Origin: Uruburuella testudinis
GTDB taxonomy: Bacteria; Pseudomonadota; Gammaproteobacteria; Burkholderiales; Neisseriaceae
Reading direction: 5' to 3'
Assembly (NCBI RefSeq): GCF_022870865.1
Contig: NZ_CP091508.1
Location: forward strand, 62,001-126,000
Length of the DNA stretch: 64,000 nucleotides
The notes beneath the pieces are model-generated. The model ran no database searches, was not told where the DNA came from, and saw nothing but the letters and a program-made list of their open reading frames with translations. The translations under genes were made by a program, and so were the position numbers. Positions 2,561 through 13,087 of the stretch are shown here, one piece after another; within the stretch, counting starts at the first letter, position 1; every line of letters begins with the position of its first letter.

Positions 2561-4318
2561 ATGCAGATCAAACCGGCTTTATATGCGGTGTTGGGCGCGT
2601 TGGCTTTGGCGGCTTGCGCATCAGCACCCCAGCAACCAACCACCGGCGGCGCGGGCGATTTGGCGCCTGAGCAAGGCAGCGGCCGTGTCGAGCAAAATCT
2701 GGTACACGCCAAAAACTTTATGGCCGCATCGGCCAACCCGCTGGCCACCGAAGCGGGCTATCAGATACTCAAACGCGGCGGCAGCGCCATTGATGCGATG
2801 ATTGCGATGCAGACCACGTTGAGCCTGGTTGAGCCGCAGTCTTCCGGTTTGGGCGGCGGTGCATTTTTGGTGTATTGGGACAACTCAGCCAAAAAACTGA
2901 CTACTTTTGATGCCCGCGAAACCGCGCCGCAAGGGGCAACGCCGCAGTTGTTTATGGGTACCGACGGTCAGCCCTTGAAATTTATGACGGCCGTGGTGGG
3001 CGGCCGCTCGGTGGGCACGCCGGGTGTGCCCAAACTGATGGAAGATGTGCACAAACGTTACGGTAAACTGGCGTGGAACAGTTTGTTTGATTACCCGGTC
3101 AAGCTGGCGGAAGACGGCTTTGAAGTGTCGCCGCGCATGGCTGCATCGATTGAACAAAACCGGCAATATTTAAGCCGCTATACTGCCACGGCGGCATATT
3201 TTCTGCCCGGCGGCGAGCCGTTGGCGGCAGGCACTTTGTTGAAAAATCCGGCATTTGCCCAAAGCGTGCGCCTGCTGGCCAAAGAAGGCAGCGCACCGTT
3301 TTACAGCGGCACACCGGCACGCAATATGGTAAGCGCTGTGGCGGCGGCGGCCGATAATCCGGGCAGCCTGAGCCTGGCCGATTTTCAAAAATACCGCGTG
3401 GTGGAGCGCGCCCCGGTGTGCAAACCTTACCGTGAATACGAAATCTGCGGCATGGGTGCGCCTTCTTCGGGCGGCATTGCGCTGGGGCAGATTTTCGGTA
3501 TTCTGCAAAACCACGATATGAAAGCTTCCGGCGCCGATAAGCTGCAAAGCTGGCGCTGGCTGGGTGATGCTTCGCGGGTGGCTTTTGCCGACCGTGATTA
3601 TTATGTCGGCGACCCCGATTTTGTAGACGTGCCCGTGCGCCCGATGCTGGATCCGGCTTATCTGAAACAACGTGCCGATGAAATCAATGCTGCCGATAAA
3701 GCGCTGGAAACTGTTAACCGCGGCGATTTCAACCGCCGCTACAGCCGTGGCACCCCCATCGAGCTGCCGTCGACCAGTCATTTGGTGATTGTGGATAAAG
3801 AGGGCAATGTGGTGTCGATGACCACATCTATCGAAAATGCTTTCGGTTCCACCCTGATGGCCAACGGCTACCTGCTCAACAACGAGCTTACCGATTTTGC
3901 TTTCAACCCGGCCGACAGCACCGGCAAAGTGGTGGCAAACAGCGTTGCACCCGGCAAACGCCCGCGCTCTTCTATGGCGCCGACCATTGTGTTGAAAGAC
4001 GGTAAACCTTATCTGGCCGTGGGCTCGCCCGGCGGCAGCCGCATCATCGGCTATGTGGCTAAAACGCTGGTGGCGCATATCGATTGGGGCATGGATATTC
4101 AAGAGGCCATCGATTTGCCCAATATGCTCAACCGCGGCAGCGCTTATGAAGTGGAAGAACACACCGCCGCTGCCGATATGGCGCCGGGCTTGGGGCAGCT
4201 GGGCTATAAAGTGCAAATCCGCGATTTGAATTCGGGTGTGCAGGGGATTGTGATTCAGCAAAACGGTTTGCAGGGCGGCGCCGACCCGCGGCGGGAAGGG
4301 AAAGTGATGGGGGATTGA
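2561..4318 (+). CDS. ggt: Gamma-glutamyltransferase, lipoprotein
   Basis: A 585-residue gamma-glutamyltransferase that cleaves gamma-glutamyl bonds such as that of glutathione. The first 20 residues form a lipoprotein signal ending in the lipobox LAAC, so the protein is probably membrane-anchored, as reported for the meningococcal enzyme. The autoprocessing nucleophile is predicted to be Thr405 in PSTSHLVIVDKEGN, where the precursor splits into large and small subunits. VGSPGGSRI near residue 489 is the oxyanion-hole region. AAAGGAG precedes the start. A DnaA-box-like sequence inside the gene (3790-3798) is explained by the codons for VDK. Confidence 0.95.
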   Translation: MQIKPALYAVLGALALAACASAPQQPTTGGAGDLAPEQGSGRVEQNLVHAKNFMAASANPLATEAGYQILKRGGSAIDAMIAMQTTLSLVEPQSSGLGGGAFLVYWDNSAKKLTTFDARETAPQGATPQLFMGTDGQPLKFMTAVVGGRSVGTPGVPKLMEDVHKRYGKLAWNSLFDYPVKLAEDGFEVSPRMAASIEQNRQYLSRYTATAAYFLPGGEPLAAGTLLKNPAFAQSVRLLAKEGSAPFYSGTPARNMVSAVAAAADNPGSLSLADFQKYRVVERAPVCKPYREYEICGMGAPSSGGIALGQIFGILQNHDMKASGADKLQSWRWLGDASRVAFADRDYYVGDPDFVDVPVRPMLDPAYLKQRADEINAADKALETVNRGDFNRRYSRGTPIELPSTSHLVIVDKEGNVVSMTTSIENAFGSTLMANGYLLNNELTDFAFNPADSTGKVVANSVAPGKRPRSSMAPTIVLKDGKPYLAVGSPGGSRIIGYVAKTLVAHIDWGMDIQEAIDLPNMLNRGSAYEVEEHTAAADMAPGLGQLGYKVQIRDLNSGVQGIVIQQNGLQGGADPRREGKVMGD

Positions 4319-5647: not shown

Positions 5648-6565
5648 TCACGCCGCATCAGGCAGGCCGTGAAATGCAGCGGGCAAGTCTTCATCATTCG
5701 GAAACTCCACCCATTCGTAAGCACTTGGGTCAGCCAACACCGCGCGCAATAAAGCATTGTTGACGGCGTGGCCGGATTTGTAGCCCTCAAATGCACCGAT
5801 AATCGGATGGCCGACAATATACAAATCACCGATGGCATCGAGGATTTTATGGCGCACAAATTCATCGGGATAACGCAACCCTTCGGGATTGAGTACGTCG
5901 GTGTCGTCAATCACAATCGCATTGGAGAGGTTGCCGCCGAGACCGAGGTTGTGGGCGCGCATCAGCTCCACTTCCTGCATAAAGCCGAAAGTGCGGGCGC
6001 GGGCGATTTCGTCTACATAAGATTTACCGGCAAAGTCGATTTCAAATGTGGGGTTGCTGCGGTTGAATACGGGGTGGTCGAATTCGATGGTGAGGGTAAC
6101 TTTGAAGCCGTTATAGGGGGTGAAACGCACCCATTTGCCGGTTTCTTGAATTTCCACCGGTTTCAAAATTTTCAGAAAACGTTTTTGCACTTTTTGATCG
6201 ACAATGCCGGCATCTTGCAGCAGATAGATAAACGGCAGGCTGGAGCCGTCCATAATCGGGATTTCAGGCGCATTGAGCTCGATTAAGGCATTATCGATGC
6301 CGTAAGCCGCCAATGCCGACATAATATGCTCAATGGTGCCCACGCGCACACCGTGTTCGGTTACCACAGTAGACGAAAGGCGGGTGTCGTTGATCAGATA
6401 CGGCGTGAGCGCAATCATTTCGCCTTGTTCGCCGGCTAAATCAGTGCGGCGGAATGAAATGCCGCTGTTTTCGGGGGCAGGATGTAGGGTAAGCGCCACC
6501 CGTTCGCCGGAGTGCAGGCCGACACCGGTCACGCTCACCGATTTGGCTAAGGTTCTTTGCAGCAT
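5648..6565 (-). CDS. lpxC: UDP-3-O-acyl-N-acetylglucosamine deacetylase
   Basis: The zinc-dependent deacetylase for the committed step of lipid A synthesis, 305 residues as in Escherichia coli. Zinc ligands are expected at His80, His239 and Asp243 (GTIEHIMSAL and RHKILDAIGD). Glu79 and His266 (GYKSGHAVNN) are the catalytic pair. The gene is monocistronic here, divergent from gapA over a 579-bp gap with origin-like features. Product levels are usually controlled by proteolysis in enterobacteria; nothing in the sequence tests that here. Confidence 0.97.
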   Translation of the reverse strand: MLQRTLAKSVSVTGVGLHSGERVALTLHPAPENSGISFRRTDLAGEQGEMIALTPYLINDTRLSSTVVTEHGVRVGTIEHIMSALAAYGIDNALIELNAPEIPIMDGSSLPFIYLLQDAGIVDQKVQKRFLKILKPVEIQETGKWVRFTPYNGFKVTLTIEFDHPVFNRSNPTFEIDFAGKSYVDEIARARTFGFMQEVELMRAHNLGLGGNLSNAIVIDDTDVLNPEGLRYPDEFVRHKILDAIGDLYIVGHPIIGAFEGYKSGHAVNNALLRAVLADPSAYEWVEFPNDEDLPAAFHGLPDAA

Positions 6566-7144
6566 GGGTTTATCCTTATTCGGTATTTTGCTTGATAATA
6601 CGATAAAACTGAATGACCAACATAATATTTTTAATAGTATTTACTTATGCAAAGCATTGGTGCCTGCATTTTATCGGGTTTTCGCTGATGTATAACTTCA
6701 GGCTGCGCCGGTGGATAAGTTGAGATTATCCACAACACAGATGCGGATTTTGCTTTTTATACATTTTATCCTGGTTTGGAACGGGGTTTATCCCTAAACT
6801 TTCATCTAAAGTAGCTTTTTGTTTTTTCATGTAAAAACAGCTTTATCCACAAGACACTGCCGCCTTCATCTAATATCATCTTTTTAATATTTAAATCTAT
6901 ATTTATAAAAGCGCACTAAATCATACCGTTCAGACGGCCTGTAAAACAGTACTTCATTCATTTGAAAAAATCAGTCGGTAAAAGAAAATGACACGCTTCA
7001 AATCATTGTTTGAAAACCGGGACAGCTTAATTTAAATCAGATTTTGTATCATTACATTCAAGTAGTTCTAGGTAGTAATTTTATTTCATGGTAAAACGCA
7101 TTTATAAATTTACCACCTTATTCAGATTTCTTTAGGAGCAAAAT
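6566..7144. other. 579-bp lpxC-gapA gap: DnaA boxes plus AT-rich block, candidate origin region
   Basis: Perfect DnaA boxes TTATCCACA lie at 6726-6734 and 6843-6851. A one-mismatch box in opposite orientation (GGTGGATAA) is at 6710-6718, and a weaker TTATCCCTA is near 6789. A strongly AT-rich stretch follows at about 6872-6920, and a second at 7020-7110. A single partial DUS occurs near 6930-6941. This arrangement of boxes beside an AT-rich block is what a bacterial oriC looks like. Two parS sites lie 3 and 6 kb away. No gene was found in the gap. Confidence 0.45.
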
Positions 7145-8149
7145 ATGAGCATTAAAGTTGCGATTAACGGTTTCGGCCGCATCGGCCGCTTGGCATTGCG
7201 CCAAATCGTGAAAACAGAAGGCATCGAAGTGGTGGCGGTAAACGACCTCACACCGGCCGATATGCTGCTGCACCTGTTTAAATACGACACCACCCAAGGC
7301 CGTTTTCAAGGCACTGCCGAGCTGAAAGACGATGCGATTGTGGTTAACGGCAAAGAAATCAAAGTGTTTGCCAATGCCAACCCGGAAGAGCTGCCTTGGG
7401 GCGAGTTGGGCGTTGATGTGGTGTTGGAATGCACCGGCTTCTTTACGACGCAAGAAAAAGCTGAGAAACACATCAAAGCCGGTGCACGCAAAGTGGTGAT
7501 TTCAGCACCGGGCGGCGATGTGAAAACCGTGGTATTCAACGTGAACCAAGATATTCTCGACGGCAGCGAAACCGTGATTTCCGCCGCATCCTGCACCACC
7601 AACTGCCTGGCGCCGATGGCTGCCGTATTGCAAAAAGAATTCGGTGTGGTAGAAGGCCTGATGACCACCATCCACGCCTACACCGGCGACCAAAACACGC
7701 TTGATGCGCCGCACCGCAAAGGCGATTTCCGCCGCGCTCGTGCCGCTGCGCAAAATATCGTGCCCAACAGCACCGGCGCCGCCAAAGCCATCGGCTTGGT
7801 GATTCCTGAATTGAACGGCAAACTCGACGGCTCTGCCCAACGCGTGCCCGTGGCGACCGGTTCTTTAACCGAATTGGTAACCGTGTTGGAAAAAACCGTC
7901 AGCAAAGAAGAAATCAATGCAGCCATGAAAGCCGCAGCCAACGAATCTTACGGCTATACCGAAGAGCCGCTGGTTTCTTCCGACATTATCGGCATGGAAT
8001 TCGGCTCATTATTTGACGCCACCCAAACCCGCGTGATGACCGTTGGCGACAAACAGCTGGTGAAAACTGTGGCTTGGTACGACAATGAAATGTCTTATAC
8101 CTGCCAATTGGTGCGCACCTTGCAATACTTCGCCACTTTAATTAAATAA
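7145..8149 (+). CDS. gapA: Glyceraldehyde-3-phosphate dehydrogenase
   Basis: A 334-residue NAD-type GAPDH that converts glyceraldehyde 3-phosphate to 1,3-bisphosphoglycerate. [12 protein letters not shown] is the nucleotide-binding turn. Asp34 in VNDLTPADM favours NAD. The catalytic Cys150 sits in [13 protein letters not shown], and His177 in [10 protein letters not shown] completes the pair. TTAGGAG precedes the start. Neisseria usually carry two paralogues; which one this is cannot be settled from the sequence alone, so the symbol is generic. Confidence 0.95.
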
Positions 8150-9926: not shown

Positions 9927-9927
9927 A

Positions 9928-9943
9928 TGTTTCACGTGAAACA
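9928..9943. other. parS site, perfect (ParB binding)
   Basis: TGTTTCACGTGAAACA is an exact 16-bp palindrome matching the widely conserved chromosomal parS consensus TGTTNCACGTGAAACA. It is in the short gap between pncA and waaC. ParB spreads from such sites, which in most bacteria lie near the replication origin. Confidence 0.85.
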
Positions 9944-9984
9944 TCAGGCGCTTGTTTATCATTATCGGCAAACGGAAGCATGTG

Positions 9985-10959
9985 ATGAAAATTTTGCTTG
10001 TACGCCTTTCTAGTATGGGTGATTTGATCCACACCTTGCCGGCAGTAGATGATTTGTCGCGCATGCGCCCGGACATCGAGCTGCATTGGCTTTGTGAGGC
10101 AGGGTTTGCCGATATTGCCCGTTTGCACCCGTTTGTGAAACGAGTGCATCTTATGCATGGCCGAAAATGGCGGAAGCAATTGACGCAAACGGCCACATGG
10201 CGTGAAATAGGCCGTCTGAAAAGCGATTTGCAACAACAGAATTTTGATAATGTGCTCGACAGCCAGGGGCTGATAAAAAGTGCATTGTTTGCCAAAGCAG
10301 CCAATGCACCGGTGCAGGGTTTGGATTTTTACAGCGCCCGCGAACGGTGGGCGGCGCTGCTGTATAACAAAGTTTACCCCGTGCCTAAAGGCAGAAATGC
10401 GGTTTGGCGTAACCGCGCATTGTTTGCACAGGCATTCACTTATCGGATGCCGTCTGAACAGCGCTTTGGTTTGTCGGTGCCGCCGGCCGGCCGGTTGGAA
10501 AATTTGCCGCCGCACTATTATGTTGCCTTGCATGCAACCAGCCGCGACAGCAAATTGTGGCCATTGGATTATTGGCTGGATTTGCTGCAAAAGTTGCATC
10601 AGCGCGAGCATGCGCCGGTGTATTTGCCATGGGGCAGTTTGCAGGAAAGAGAACGTGCTGAAAGCATAGCGGCCAAACTGCCGTTTGCACGGGTGTGTGA
10701 AAAAATGAATCTGCTCCAAGCGGCTTATTTGCTGGCTCATGCAACCGGTGTGGCCGGTGTCGATACCGGTTTGCTGCATTTGGCCAATGCGCTTGATGTG
10801 CCGGTGGTGGGTATTTATACCGATACCGATCCGGCCAAAACAGGCGTGCAGATTTCGGCATGGTCGCAAAATTTGGGCAATGCAGGTCAGATTCCGCTGC
10901 CTGAAAGGGTTTATGAAGCTTTATCGGATTGTATTGCTGCCAAAGATGAGGCCGTCTGA
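9985..10959 (+). CDS. waaC: Lipopolysaccharide heptosyltransferase I
   Basis: A 324-residue glycosyltransferase of family 9 that adds the first heptose to the Kdo residue of the lipooligosaccharide inner core, on the cytoplasmic face of the inner membrane. It opens MKILLVRLSSMGDLIHTLPA and carries the ADP-heptose-binding region AGVDTGLLHLANALDVPVVGIY. The ATG at 9985 was chosen because it begins the conserved N-terminus and follows GGAAG. A DUS is translated in the gene at about 10209, an ATGCCGTCTGAA copy lies at 10447-10458, and a third DUS supplies the last codons GAG GCC GTC TGA. Confidence 0.94.
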   Translation: MKILLVRLSSMGDLIHTLPAVDDLSRMRPDIELHWLCEAGFADIARLHPFVKRVHLMHGRKWRKQLTQTATWREIGRLKSDLQQQNFDNVLDSQGLIKSALFAKAANAPVQGLDFYSARERWAALLYNKVYPVPKGRNAVWRNRALFAQAFTYRMPSEQRFGLSVPPAGRLENLPPHYYVALHATSRDSKLWPLDYWLDLLQKLHQREHAPVYLPWGSLQERERAESIAAKLPFARVCEKMNLLQAAYLLAHATGVAGVDTGLLHLANALDVPVVGIYTDTDPAKTGVQISAWSQNLGNAGQIPLPERVYEALSDCIAAKDEAV

Positions 10960-11074
10960 ATAATTTCCACAAAAATCAGCTGACGGTGCCGGCTTGCCCG
11001 CCGTGAATGGTTTTTTTGCTTGCTGCTTTTTTGCTTGCTTTGATAAATAAGTATGAATCAAAATCCGTAAAGGT

Positions 11075-11105
11075 TTGAATAAGCTTTATTTTTATCGGGT
11101 ATAAT
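11075..11105 (+). promoter_or_regulatory. Probable sigma-70 promoter of etfBA
   Basis: A perfect -10 TATAAT at 11100-11105 with TTGAAT at 11075-11080 (19-bp spacer, slightly long), in the AT-rich 292-bp gap ahead of etfB. Predicted leader about 140 nt. Confidence 0.5.
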
Positions 11106-11251
11106 TTAAAGCTGATAGGGCTGGTGAATGTGATTTTATAAAACAGCTTGTGTTTTATATATGTTTTATTTATGCAGCAACAGCCGTCTTGTCAGATATT
11201 GAGTTAACAGGTCATTAATTGCCGGCATGGTTTCCGGCTCAAGGAGAACGC

Positions 11252-11998
11252 ATGAAAGCACTGGTCGCCGTAAAACGCGTGGTGGATTACAATGTTAAAG
11301 TCCGGGTTAAAGCCGATGGTTCGGATGTGGATATCGGCAATGTTAAAATGTCGATGAATCCGTTTGACGAAATTGCTGTGGAAGAAGCCGTGCGCTTGAA
11401 AGAAGCGGGCAAAATCAGCGAGATTGTGGCGGTATCACTGGGCGAGAAAAAATGCGAGGAAACTTTGCGCACAGCACTCGCTATGGGTGCCGACCGGGCT
11501 ATTCATGTAGAAACCGATGCCAAGCTGGAGCCGTTGGCGGTGGCCAAATTGCTGAAGGCAGTGGCCGATAAAGAACAGCCGCAGCTGCTTTTGTTGGGCA
11601 AACAGGCGATTGATGACGATGCCAATCAAACCGCACAAATGCTGGCTGCTTTGCTGAATGCAGCGCAAGGCACGTTTGCCGCCAAAGTGGTGTTGGCAGA
11701 TAATGAAGTGTTGGTAACCCGTGAGATTGACGGCGGTTCGGAAACCGTGGCATTAACACTGCCTGCTGTGATCAGCGCCGATTTGCGCTTGAATGAGCCG
11801 CGGTTTGTCAAACTGCCCAATATTATGGCGGCCAAGAAAAAACCGTTGGAAAAAGTATCACCAACAGATTTGGGCGTGGATATTACGCCACGTGTCAAAG
11901 TATTGAAAATGGCCGAACCTAAAACGCGTCAGGCCGGTGTGAAAGTAGCCGGTGTGGCCGAATTGGTTGAGAAATTAAATCAGGCTCGAGTGATTTGA
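11252..11998 (+). CDS. etfB: Electron transfer flavoprotein, beta subunit
   Basis: 248-residue beta subunit of the heterodimeric electron transfer flavoprotein, which carries electrons from acyl-CoA and related dehydrogenases to ETF-quinone oxidoreductase. It starts [20 protein letters not shown] and carries the family signature around [30 protein letters not shown] and [18 protein letters not shown] sits 6 nt before the ATG; an upstream frame extension is not needed. etfA follows after 10 nt. Confidence 0.95.
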
Positions 11999-12008
11999 GG
12001 AATATGAT

Positions 12009-12944
12009 ATGAGCGTATTGATTATTGCAGAACATAACAATCAGCAATTGAATCCGGCTACATTACATGCGGTTGAAGCAGCATCCAAGCTGGGTGAAGT
12101 GCATCTGCTGGTGGCAGGTAGCGGTATTTCGGCGGTTGTGGAAGCCGCCGGGCAAGTGAGTGGCGTAGCGAAAGTATGGTCGGCCGATGCGGCTTATTAT
12201 GGCGAAGGTTTGGCAGAAGAAATCGCACCGCTGGTGGTTAAGCTTGCCGAGCATTACACCCATATCGGGGCCACTGCTACCGCATTCGGCAAAAACCTGC
12301 TGCCGCGCGTGGCTGCATTGTTGGATGTGCCGCAAATCTCTGATTTAACAGAAATTATAGATGCACAAACTTTTGTGCGCCCGATTTATGCGGGCAATGC
12401 ATTTGAAACTGTGCAAAGCGATTCGGCCAAATTGGTGCTAACATTCCGCTCAACTGCATTTACAGCCGCTGCTGCCGAAGGTGGCCATGCCACAGTAGAA
12501 AATGTTGAGGCTGCGCCGGCACAAAATTTAAGCCGTTTTGTCGGCCGAGAGCTGACCCAATCAGACCGGCCGGAGCTTACACAAGCCAAGGTTGTGGTAA
12601 CAGGCGGGCGTGCTTTGGGCAGCGCCGAGCAATTTGATGCGCTGCTGACACCGCTGGCGGATGTATTGGGCGCAGCTATTGGCGCTTCTCGTGCTGCGGT
12701 AGATGCCGAATATGCGCCGAATGATATTCAGGTCGGGCAAACCGGTAAAGTGGTGGCGCCCGAGCTGTATATCGCCGTGGGCGTTTCCGGCGCCATCCAG
12801 CATATCGCCGGCATGCAAGACAGCAAAGTGATTGTTGCCATCAATAAAGATGCAGATGCACCTATTTTCAATATTGCCGATTATGGTTTGGTGGGCGATT
12901 TATTTGAAATCGTGCCGCAGTTGACCGCTGCATTGAAACAGTAA
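12009..12944 (+). CDS. etfA: Electron transfer flavoprotein, alpha subunit
   Basis: 311-residue alpha subunit. The N-terminal half resembles the beta subunit fold. The C-terminal half is the FAD domain, with [14 protein letters not shown] and then [20 protein letters not shown] and [17 protein letters not shown]. It forms an operon with etfB and ends at an ordinary intrinsic terminator just after a parS-like site. Which dehydrogenase feeds this ETF cannot be told from the window. Confidence 0.96.
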
Positions 12945-12947
12945 ACA

Positions 12948-12963
12948 GGTTTCACGTGAAACA
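12948..12963. other. Second parS site (one mismatch)
   Basis: GGTTTCACGTGAAACA differs from the perfect parS at 9928 only in its first base and keeps the 14-bp palindrome. It lies 4 nt after the etfA stop codon, outside any gene, 3.0 kb from the first site. Confidence 0.75.
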
Positions 12964-12987
12964 TTAAATTGTGCTTCATTATTATTG

Positions 12988-13030
12988 AATAAAAACTTTA
13001 TACGCAAGCATTACGTATAAAGTTTTTATT
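12988..13030 (+). terminator. Intrinsic terminator of etfBA (not DUS-based)
   Basis: Perfect 17-bp arms (12988-13004 and 13014-13030), AT-rich with AAAAA and TTTTT flanks. It is one of only three terminators in the window that lack DUS. Confidence 0.85.
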
Positions 13031-13037
13031 ATTTTTA

Positions 13038-13074
13038 TTTCAGACGGCCTGAACATGATAAAGGCCGTCTGAAA
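13038..13074. other. DUS pair in reversed order upstream of ltaE
   Basis: The order is TTCAGACGGCCT then AGGCCGTCTGAA, the opposite of the terminator arrangement. It still forms a hairpin, 13 bp before the ltaE start codon. It may influence ltaE leader structure. Confidence 0.5.
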
Positions 13075-13087
13075 ACAGGAGCAAACC

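Follow-up and report, generated by a model that had tools for sequence, protein, structure and literature searches.

What are the two short palindromes that flank the waaC-etfBA genes of this bacterium, and where does its chromosome begin to replicate? The window, meaning the whole stretch of DNA that we analysed, spans 64 kb (positions 62,001-126,000 of NZ_CP091508.1) and belongs to a closed genome of a single contig of 2,949,123 bases. Throughout the comparisons, its genus is treated as Neisseria and its family is Neisseriaceae. We conclude with high confidence, from sequence evidence, that the palindromes are chromosomal parS (centromere) sites and that replication most likely starts nearby rather than at dnaA.

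Two parS-type palindromes around waaC-etfBA

The sites and the genes that they enclose are arranged as follows.

9928-9943, no strand: putative parS site 1, a perfect 16-bp palindrome TGTTTCACGTGAAACA with 0 mismatches, 5' of waaC
9985-10959, + strand: waaC, LPS heptosyltransferase I (TIGR02193 over cut-off), between the two sites
11252-11998, + strand: etfB, electron transfer flavoprotein beta subunit (PF01012 over cut-off), between the two sites
12009-12944, + strand: etfA, electron transfer flavoprotein alpha subunit (PF01012 and PF00766 over cut-off), between the two sites
12948-12963, no strand: putative parS site 2, GGTTTCACGTGAAACA, with 1 mismatch at the outermost base, 3' of etfA

For etfB and etfA, all NCBIfam models stay below cut-off in the profile search. 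Site 1 lies in the gap 9927-9984, between the stop codon of a nicotinamidase-like gene (which scores below the cut-off of that model) and the ATG of waaC; 41 bases separate its end from the waaC start. Site 2 occupies the gap 12945-13087, between the etfA stop codon and an aldolase-like gene.

The original prediction placed a perfect and a one-mismatch parS site in these noncoding gaps, and a pattern scan of the 64-kb window bears it out: TGTTTCACGTGAAACA and GGTTTCACGTGAAACA are the sole matches at up to three mismatches. Shuffled versions of the window contain on average 0.24 such matches, and two or more are found in 4 of 100 shuffles. Across the whole genome, at up to two mismatches, the pattern occurs in two places only, which are the two sites themselves, while the reversed control pattern occurs in one. 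The scatter of further copies round the chromosome that would have told against the prediction is therefore absent at that limit.

As the only mismatch of site 2 falls on its outermost base, its 14-bp core is intact. In the excerpted part of PMC7383237, the contacted G of parS is numbered base 1, which puts the outermost base outside the contacts; the limit of the 14-bp core is our own reading of that base numbering. Both sites have the form of a chromosomal parS, a 16-bp palindrome with its contacted core predicted to be intact. According to the part of PMC7022226 consulted, parS sites lie within the 20% of the chromosome closest to the origin. Here, two copies lie 3 kb apart, beside groups of DnaA boxes and close to an origin that is itself predicted.

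A strong hairpin with a T-rich tail (12988-13030, z -6.5) is found just after site 2, where it probably terminates the etfBA unit. We also considered the palindromes themselves as terminators and rejected this idea: neither appears in the terminator scan, which also misses the hairpin at 12988-13030 and whose 5 terminator-like hits are no excess over shuffles.

Conservation of the pair among relatives

At least one site with up to one mismatch is present in 77 of 83 genomes of the family. The genus is represented by 46 genomes, 41 of them at least 90% complete; at the same limit, 36 of these 41 carry two sites, 3 carry one and 2 carry three. The spacing is narrowly distributed: of the 37 pairs that could be measured, 34 are separated by 2.7-3.1 kb, and the median is 2,918 bp (range 2,715-3,886). 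One of the 37 pairs comes from a genome below 90% completeness, another has a two-mismatch member, and of the three sites of G009 two were used. Among the 75 family sites listed, 40 are perfect and 35 have one mismatch; the 14-bp core is kept in 31 of those 35.

The position relative to genes is maintained as well. In 17 of 18 genus loci, our own included, the fetched stretch contains both sites, one 5' of waaC and the other 3' of etfA. Site 2 keeps its place after etfA whichever gene comes next (yigZ, ltaE or others). Across the 18 loci, the flanks of the sites have a mean major-base frequency of 0.48-0.66; the corresponding figure for the core, 1.00, arises partly by construction, since the sites were located by their core. 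The ~2.9 kb spacing may have been selected, or may simply follow from the survival of both gaps within a gene block that is itself conserved.

A few genomes depart from this arrangement. G029 has a single site, and the second site of G016 has two mismatches. No site with up to one mismatch was found in G050, which is 85% complete. The same is true of G055, a closed, single-contig genome of 1.6 Mb from another genus, where we found only one two-mismatch site; its ParB is encoded next to ParA, and its centromere has possibly diverged or been lost. At the level of the order, the exact core is present in 103 of 120 sampled genomes, most commonly in one (49) or two (41) copies, so that a pair of sites is not peculiar to Neisseria.

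Two genomes from one other family of the order contain tandem arrays of parS cores: 13 copies ~220 bp apart in G159 (C61:134635-137276) and 4 copies 389 bp apart in G121 (C1:396580-397760).

Dispersed genes of ParB, ParA, SMC and DnaA

The prediction would have failed in a genome lacking parB; a single gene scores over the TIGR00180 cut-off. It occupies positions 192,967-193,827 (HMM match 193,057-193,545), ~120 kb from the sites, and is followed by ATP synthase genes. The parA-type ATPase gene is found at 2,889,297, beside rsmG, 133 kb from the sites and on the side opposite to parB; PF13614 is over cut-off and the NCBIfam ParA models are below theirs. An SMC gene over cut-off in the profile search is located at 1,202,769, and dnaA at 399,769, 326 kb from the sites. 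It was noted beforehand that parAB and dnaA are not visible in the 64-kb window. All three are indeed elsewhere on the contig, at genuinely large distances (120, 133 and 326 kb).

By sequence, the nearest solved relatives of this ParB are ParB and Noc proteins. Against NCBIfam, its lowest E-value is obtained with the Noc model TIGR04285, well below the cut-off of that model (223 vs 315 bits). As described in the excerpt of PMC7383237, four positions separate ParB from Noc, with R173 and G201 as the parS-type residues. Our protein has R, S, A and G at these positions; its R and G are the residues conserved in ParB, and it has no Noc residue at any of the four. It is the probable cognate ParB of the two sites. 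Of 31 loci tested (30 relatives and our own), 28 fit the motif and 3 have no pattern match; R and G are present in all 28.

The parA and parB genes of this genome are not adjacent, unlike those of a canonical parAB operon near the origin. Among 31 Neisseriaceae genomes whose coordinates could be used, the distance to parS is 118-691 kb for dnaA (median 323) and 36-950 kb for parB (median 186). This set leaves out G002, G050, G055 and multi-contig genomes; 11 of its 31 genome lengths are rounded to 100 kb, G066 and G082 were entered with only some of their sites, and G016 and G067 include a two-mismatch site. On the main contig of G002, which has three contigs, dnaA is ~365 kb and parB ~1.03 Mb from the first site.

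Of the 30 parB loci from relatives, 9 have a parA match next to parB, and each of these 9 belongs to another genus (G006-G008, G055-G056, G058, G060-G062). The 21 others, the 19 loci of the window's genus among them, show no parA match in the ~1.5 kb of fetched flank. The gene neighbourhoods look like the remains of a single rsmG-parA-parB-atp cluster that may have broken between its two par genes. In the Neisseriaceae genera where these two genes are linked, ParA and ParB are homologous to those studied here, where the pair is unlinked.

The locus resembles chromosomal ParABS systems that use TGTTTCACGTGAAACA, of the Bacillus, Caulobacter, Myxococcus and Pseudomonas type: the site is the consensus one, intergenic, and present in few clustered copies in an origin-like region, and the genome encodes a ParB with R173/G201-type residues, ParA and SMC. 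It differs from them in that parA and parB are non-adjacent, 133 and 120 kb from parS and on opposite sides, and in having only two sites. We regard the locus as a pair of centromere sites of a familiar kind, within what is probably the origin region. What stands out is how consistently the parS sites lie apart from the genes that encode their presumed partners; the origin candidate around gnd and lpxC is also of interest. In this genome, nature provides an example of a ParABS system with its two protein genes unlinked and its DNA sites still together.

Candidate origin and competing explanations

The window was predicted to be the probable origin/centromere region of the chromosome, and the distribution of DnaA boxes agrees with this. 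The genome contains 48 exact boxes (13 for the reversed control pattern), of which 10 fall within 62,524-76,097. At even density, which is a simplification, these 13.6 kb would be expected to hold 0.22. This is the densest group of exact boxes in the genome, and 7 of the 10 are intergenic. Almost opposite, at 1,624,748, lies a perfect match to the dif core, the sole one at up to three mismatches, 52.6% of the chromosome away from parS. Two box-bearing gaps stand out.

629-2077, - strand: gnd, phosphogluconate dehydrogenase (profile over cut-off), flanking element A
2078-2560: gnd-ggt gap, candidate oriC element A, with exact DnaA boxes at 2290, 2377 and 2407 and one near-box
2231: AT-rich 60-mer of element A, 17% GC, beside the DnaA boxes
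2561-4318, + strand: ggt, gamma-glutamyltransferase (profile over cut-off), flanking element A
5648-6565, - strand: lpxC (profile over cut-off), flanking element B
6566-7144: lpxC-gapA gap, candidate oriC element B, 33% GC, with exact DnaA boxes at 6726 and 6843, 117 bp apart
7145-8149, + strand: gapA-type GAPDH (profile over cut-off), flanking element B

Recurrence of the boxes was assessed in 21 loci (our own and 20 relatives), excluding for each gene the loci without it or short of flank. An exact box is present upstream of gnd in 10 of 11 loci (16 boxes vs 0.06 in shuffles), upstream of lpxC in 15 of 17 (31 boxes vs 0.09) and upstream of etfA, taken as a control, in none of 19. When one mismatch is permitted, the counts against shuffles become 36 vs 1.5 for gnd, 58 vs 3.0 for lpxC and 7 vs 1.7 for the etfA control, so background accounts for some of the near-boxes. 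Several loci come from close relatives, and the box counts are therefore not independent. Counting near-boxes, spacings of ~30 and 87 bp recur at gnd and of ~117 bp at lpxC.

Both gaps have the clustered boxes of a putative oriC, and each has an AT-rich 60-mer (17% GC at 2231, 20% GC at 6871). Equally or more AT-rich 60-mers occur elsewhere in the first 15 kb (12981, 5511, 8141, 4621), which makes this feature weak evidence for oriC. We dropped lpxC-gapA as the sole origin candidate: since the region upstream of gnd is as consistently boxed, both gaps are reported. In G029, the gnd-ggt gap, with exact boxes, and the lpxC region, with near-boxes only, are ~45 kb apart, so one of the two may be a titration site and not a part of the origin.

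Plotting the sites against GC skew, as had been proposed, places the origin coarsely and does not locate it precisely. In sampled stretches that cover 28% of the genome, skew is positive in 9 of 11 between 0 and 1.475 Mb and negative in 9 of 9 between 1.622 and 2.801 Mb. Between 2.80 Mb and 0.23 Mb, the cumulative skew has a broad minimum, which is lowest at the contig junction, ~73 kb from parS. A least-squares fit is best at the grid edge of -300 kb, with the next optimum at 0 kb (1.2% worse); at the parS position (70 kb) it is 4.3% worse than best, and the bootstrap range runs from -300 to +240 kb. In six relatives, skew is higher to the right of parS than to the left in 6 of 6, with a change of sign in 4 of 6 (marginal in G029). 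Their skew minimum lies 23-89 kb from parS, in two cases near the edge of the stretch; it is nearer to gnd than to parS in 4 of the 5 relatives where gnd was found, a pattern noticed post hoc. With its best fit on the grid edge and a second optimum at 0 kb, skew was rejected as a precise origin locator; as the fit is this noisy, we use it only to disfavour dnaA.

By analogy with studied systems, ParB, made 120 kb away, would nucleate on both parS sites, form clamps that depend on CTP and spread by sliding across waaC-etfBA and the adjoining DNA. CTP-dependent sliding of ParB is described for studied ParABS systems in the excerpted literature. ParA, encoded 133 kb away on the other side, would move the duplicated origins apart, and SMC would be loaded at the parS region; the analogy for segregation and SMC recruitment is taken from the consulted part of PMC7022226. 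To judge from the sequence, replication most likely starts 3-11 kb from parS, at the DnaA-box clusters of the gnd-ggt and lpxC-gapA gaps.

Three other explanations deserve to be weighed. The palindromes could be transcription-factor operators that control waaC and its neighbours and have no centromere role, a reading to which the mere 41 bases between site 1 and the waaC start lend some weight. An operator is hard to reconcile with a site 2 that stays 3' of etfA whatever gene follows, which led us to discard this reading, nor does it fit a sequence with two genomic copies only that matches the ParB consensus in a genome encoding a ParB with parS-type residues; we hold it to be very unlikely. 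Functionless chance matches are more improbable still, to the point of being negligible: the 4 in 100 shuffles with at least two matches were obtained at the loose three-mismatch limit, and stand against two sites unique in 2.95 Mb, whose place, number and spacing are kept in most of the genus.

The sites could also be parS with the origin 326 kb off at dnaA, as in many bacteria. One exact DnaA box is found just upstream of dnaA (399,605), and the contigs of several relatives begin at dnaA, which may be mere convention. Against this, skew has about the same value, ~+0.08, in the stretches sampled to the left (295 kb) and to the right (442 kb) of dnaA and shows no switch in the sampled stretches, the skew fit is 24% worse at dnaA than at its best point (the DNA at 315-442 kb lying outside the sample), and the DnaA-box group is located at parS. 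We regard a dnaA origin as unlikely, if slightly less so than the operators. Replication origins away from dnaA are known in other bacteria. Like them, this genome has DnaA-box clusters in AT-rich gaps far from dnaA; it differs in that two box-bearing gaps lie 3-11 kb from parS within the window.

The preferred reading, parS sites next to a probable origin, can be extended to a compact Neisseria locus in which a split origin (gnd-ggt and lpxC-gapA) accompanies a two-site centromere around waaC-etfBA at a selected spacing of ~2.9 kb, dnaA, parA and parB having moved away and parA and parB having split. We put this forward tentatively, and rather doubt that it holds in full. For a genus with many human-associated species, in some of which polyploidy is reported, the locus gives a precise, testable position for centromere and origin. 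Rotating a Neisseriaceae assembly to dnaA probably places its first base away from the origin. Among the matches listed in a search of open-licence literature, no title concerned Neisseria parS or a mapped Neisseria oriC; parB is absent from the main text of PMC7606547 as excerpted, and the excerpt of PMC2684130 contains Neisseria skew-index rows.

Finally, GCCGTCTGAA, which we take to be the uptake word of Neisseria, recurs in the window sequence.
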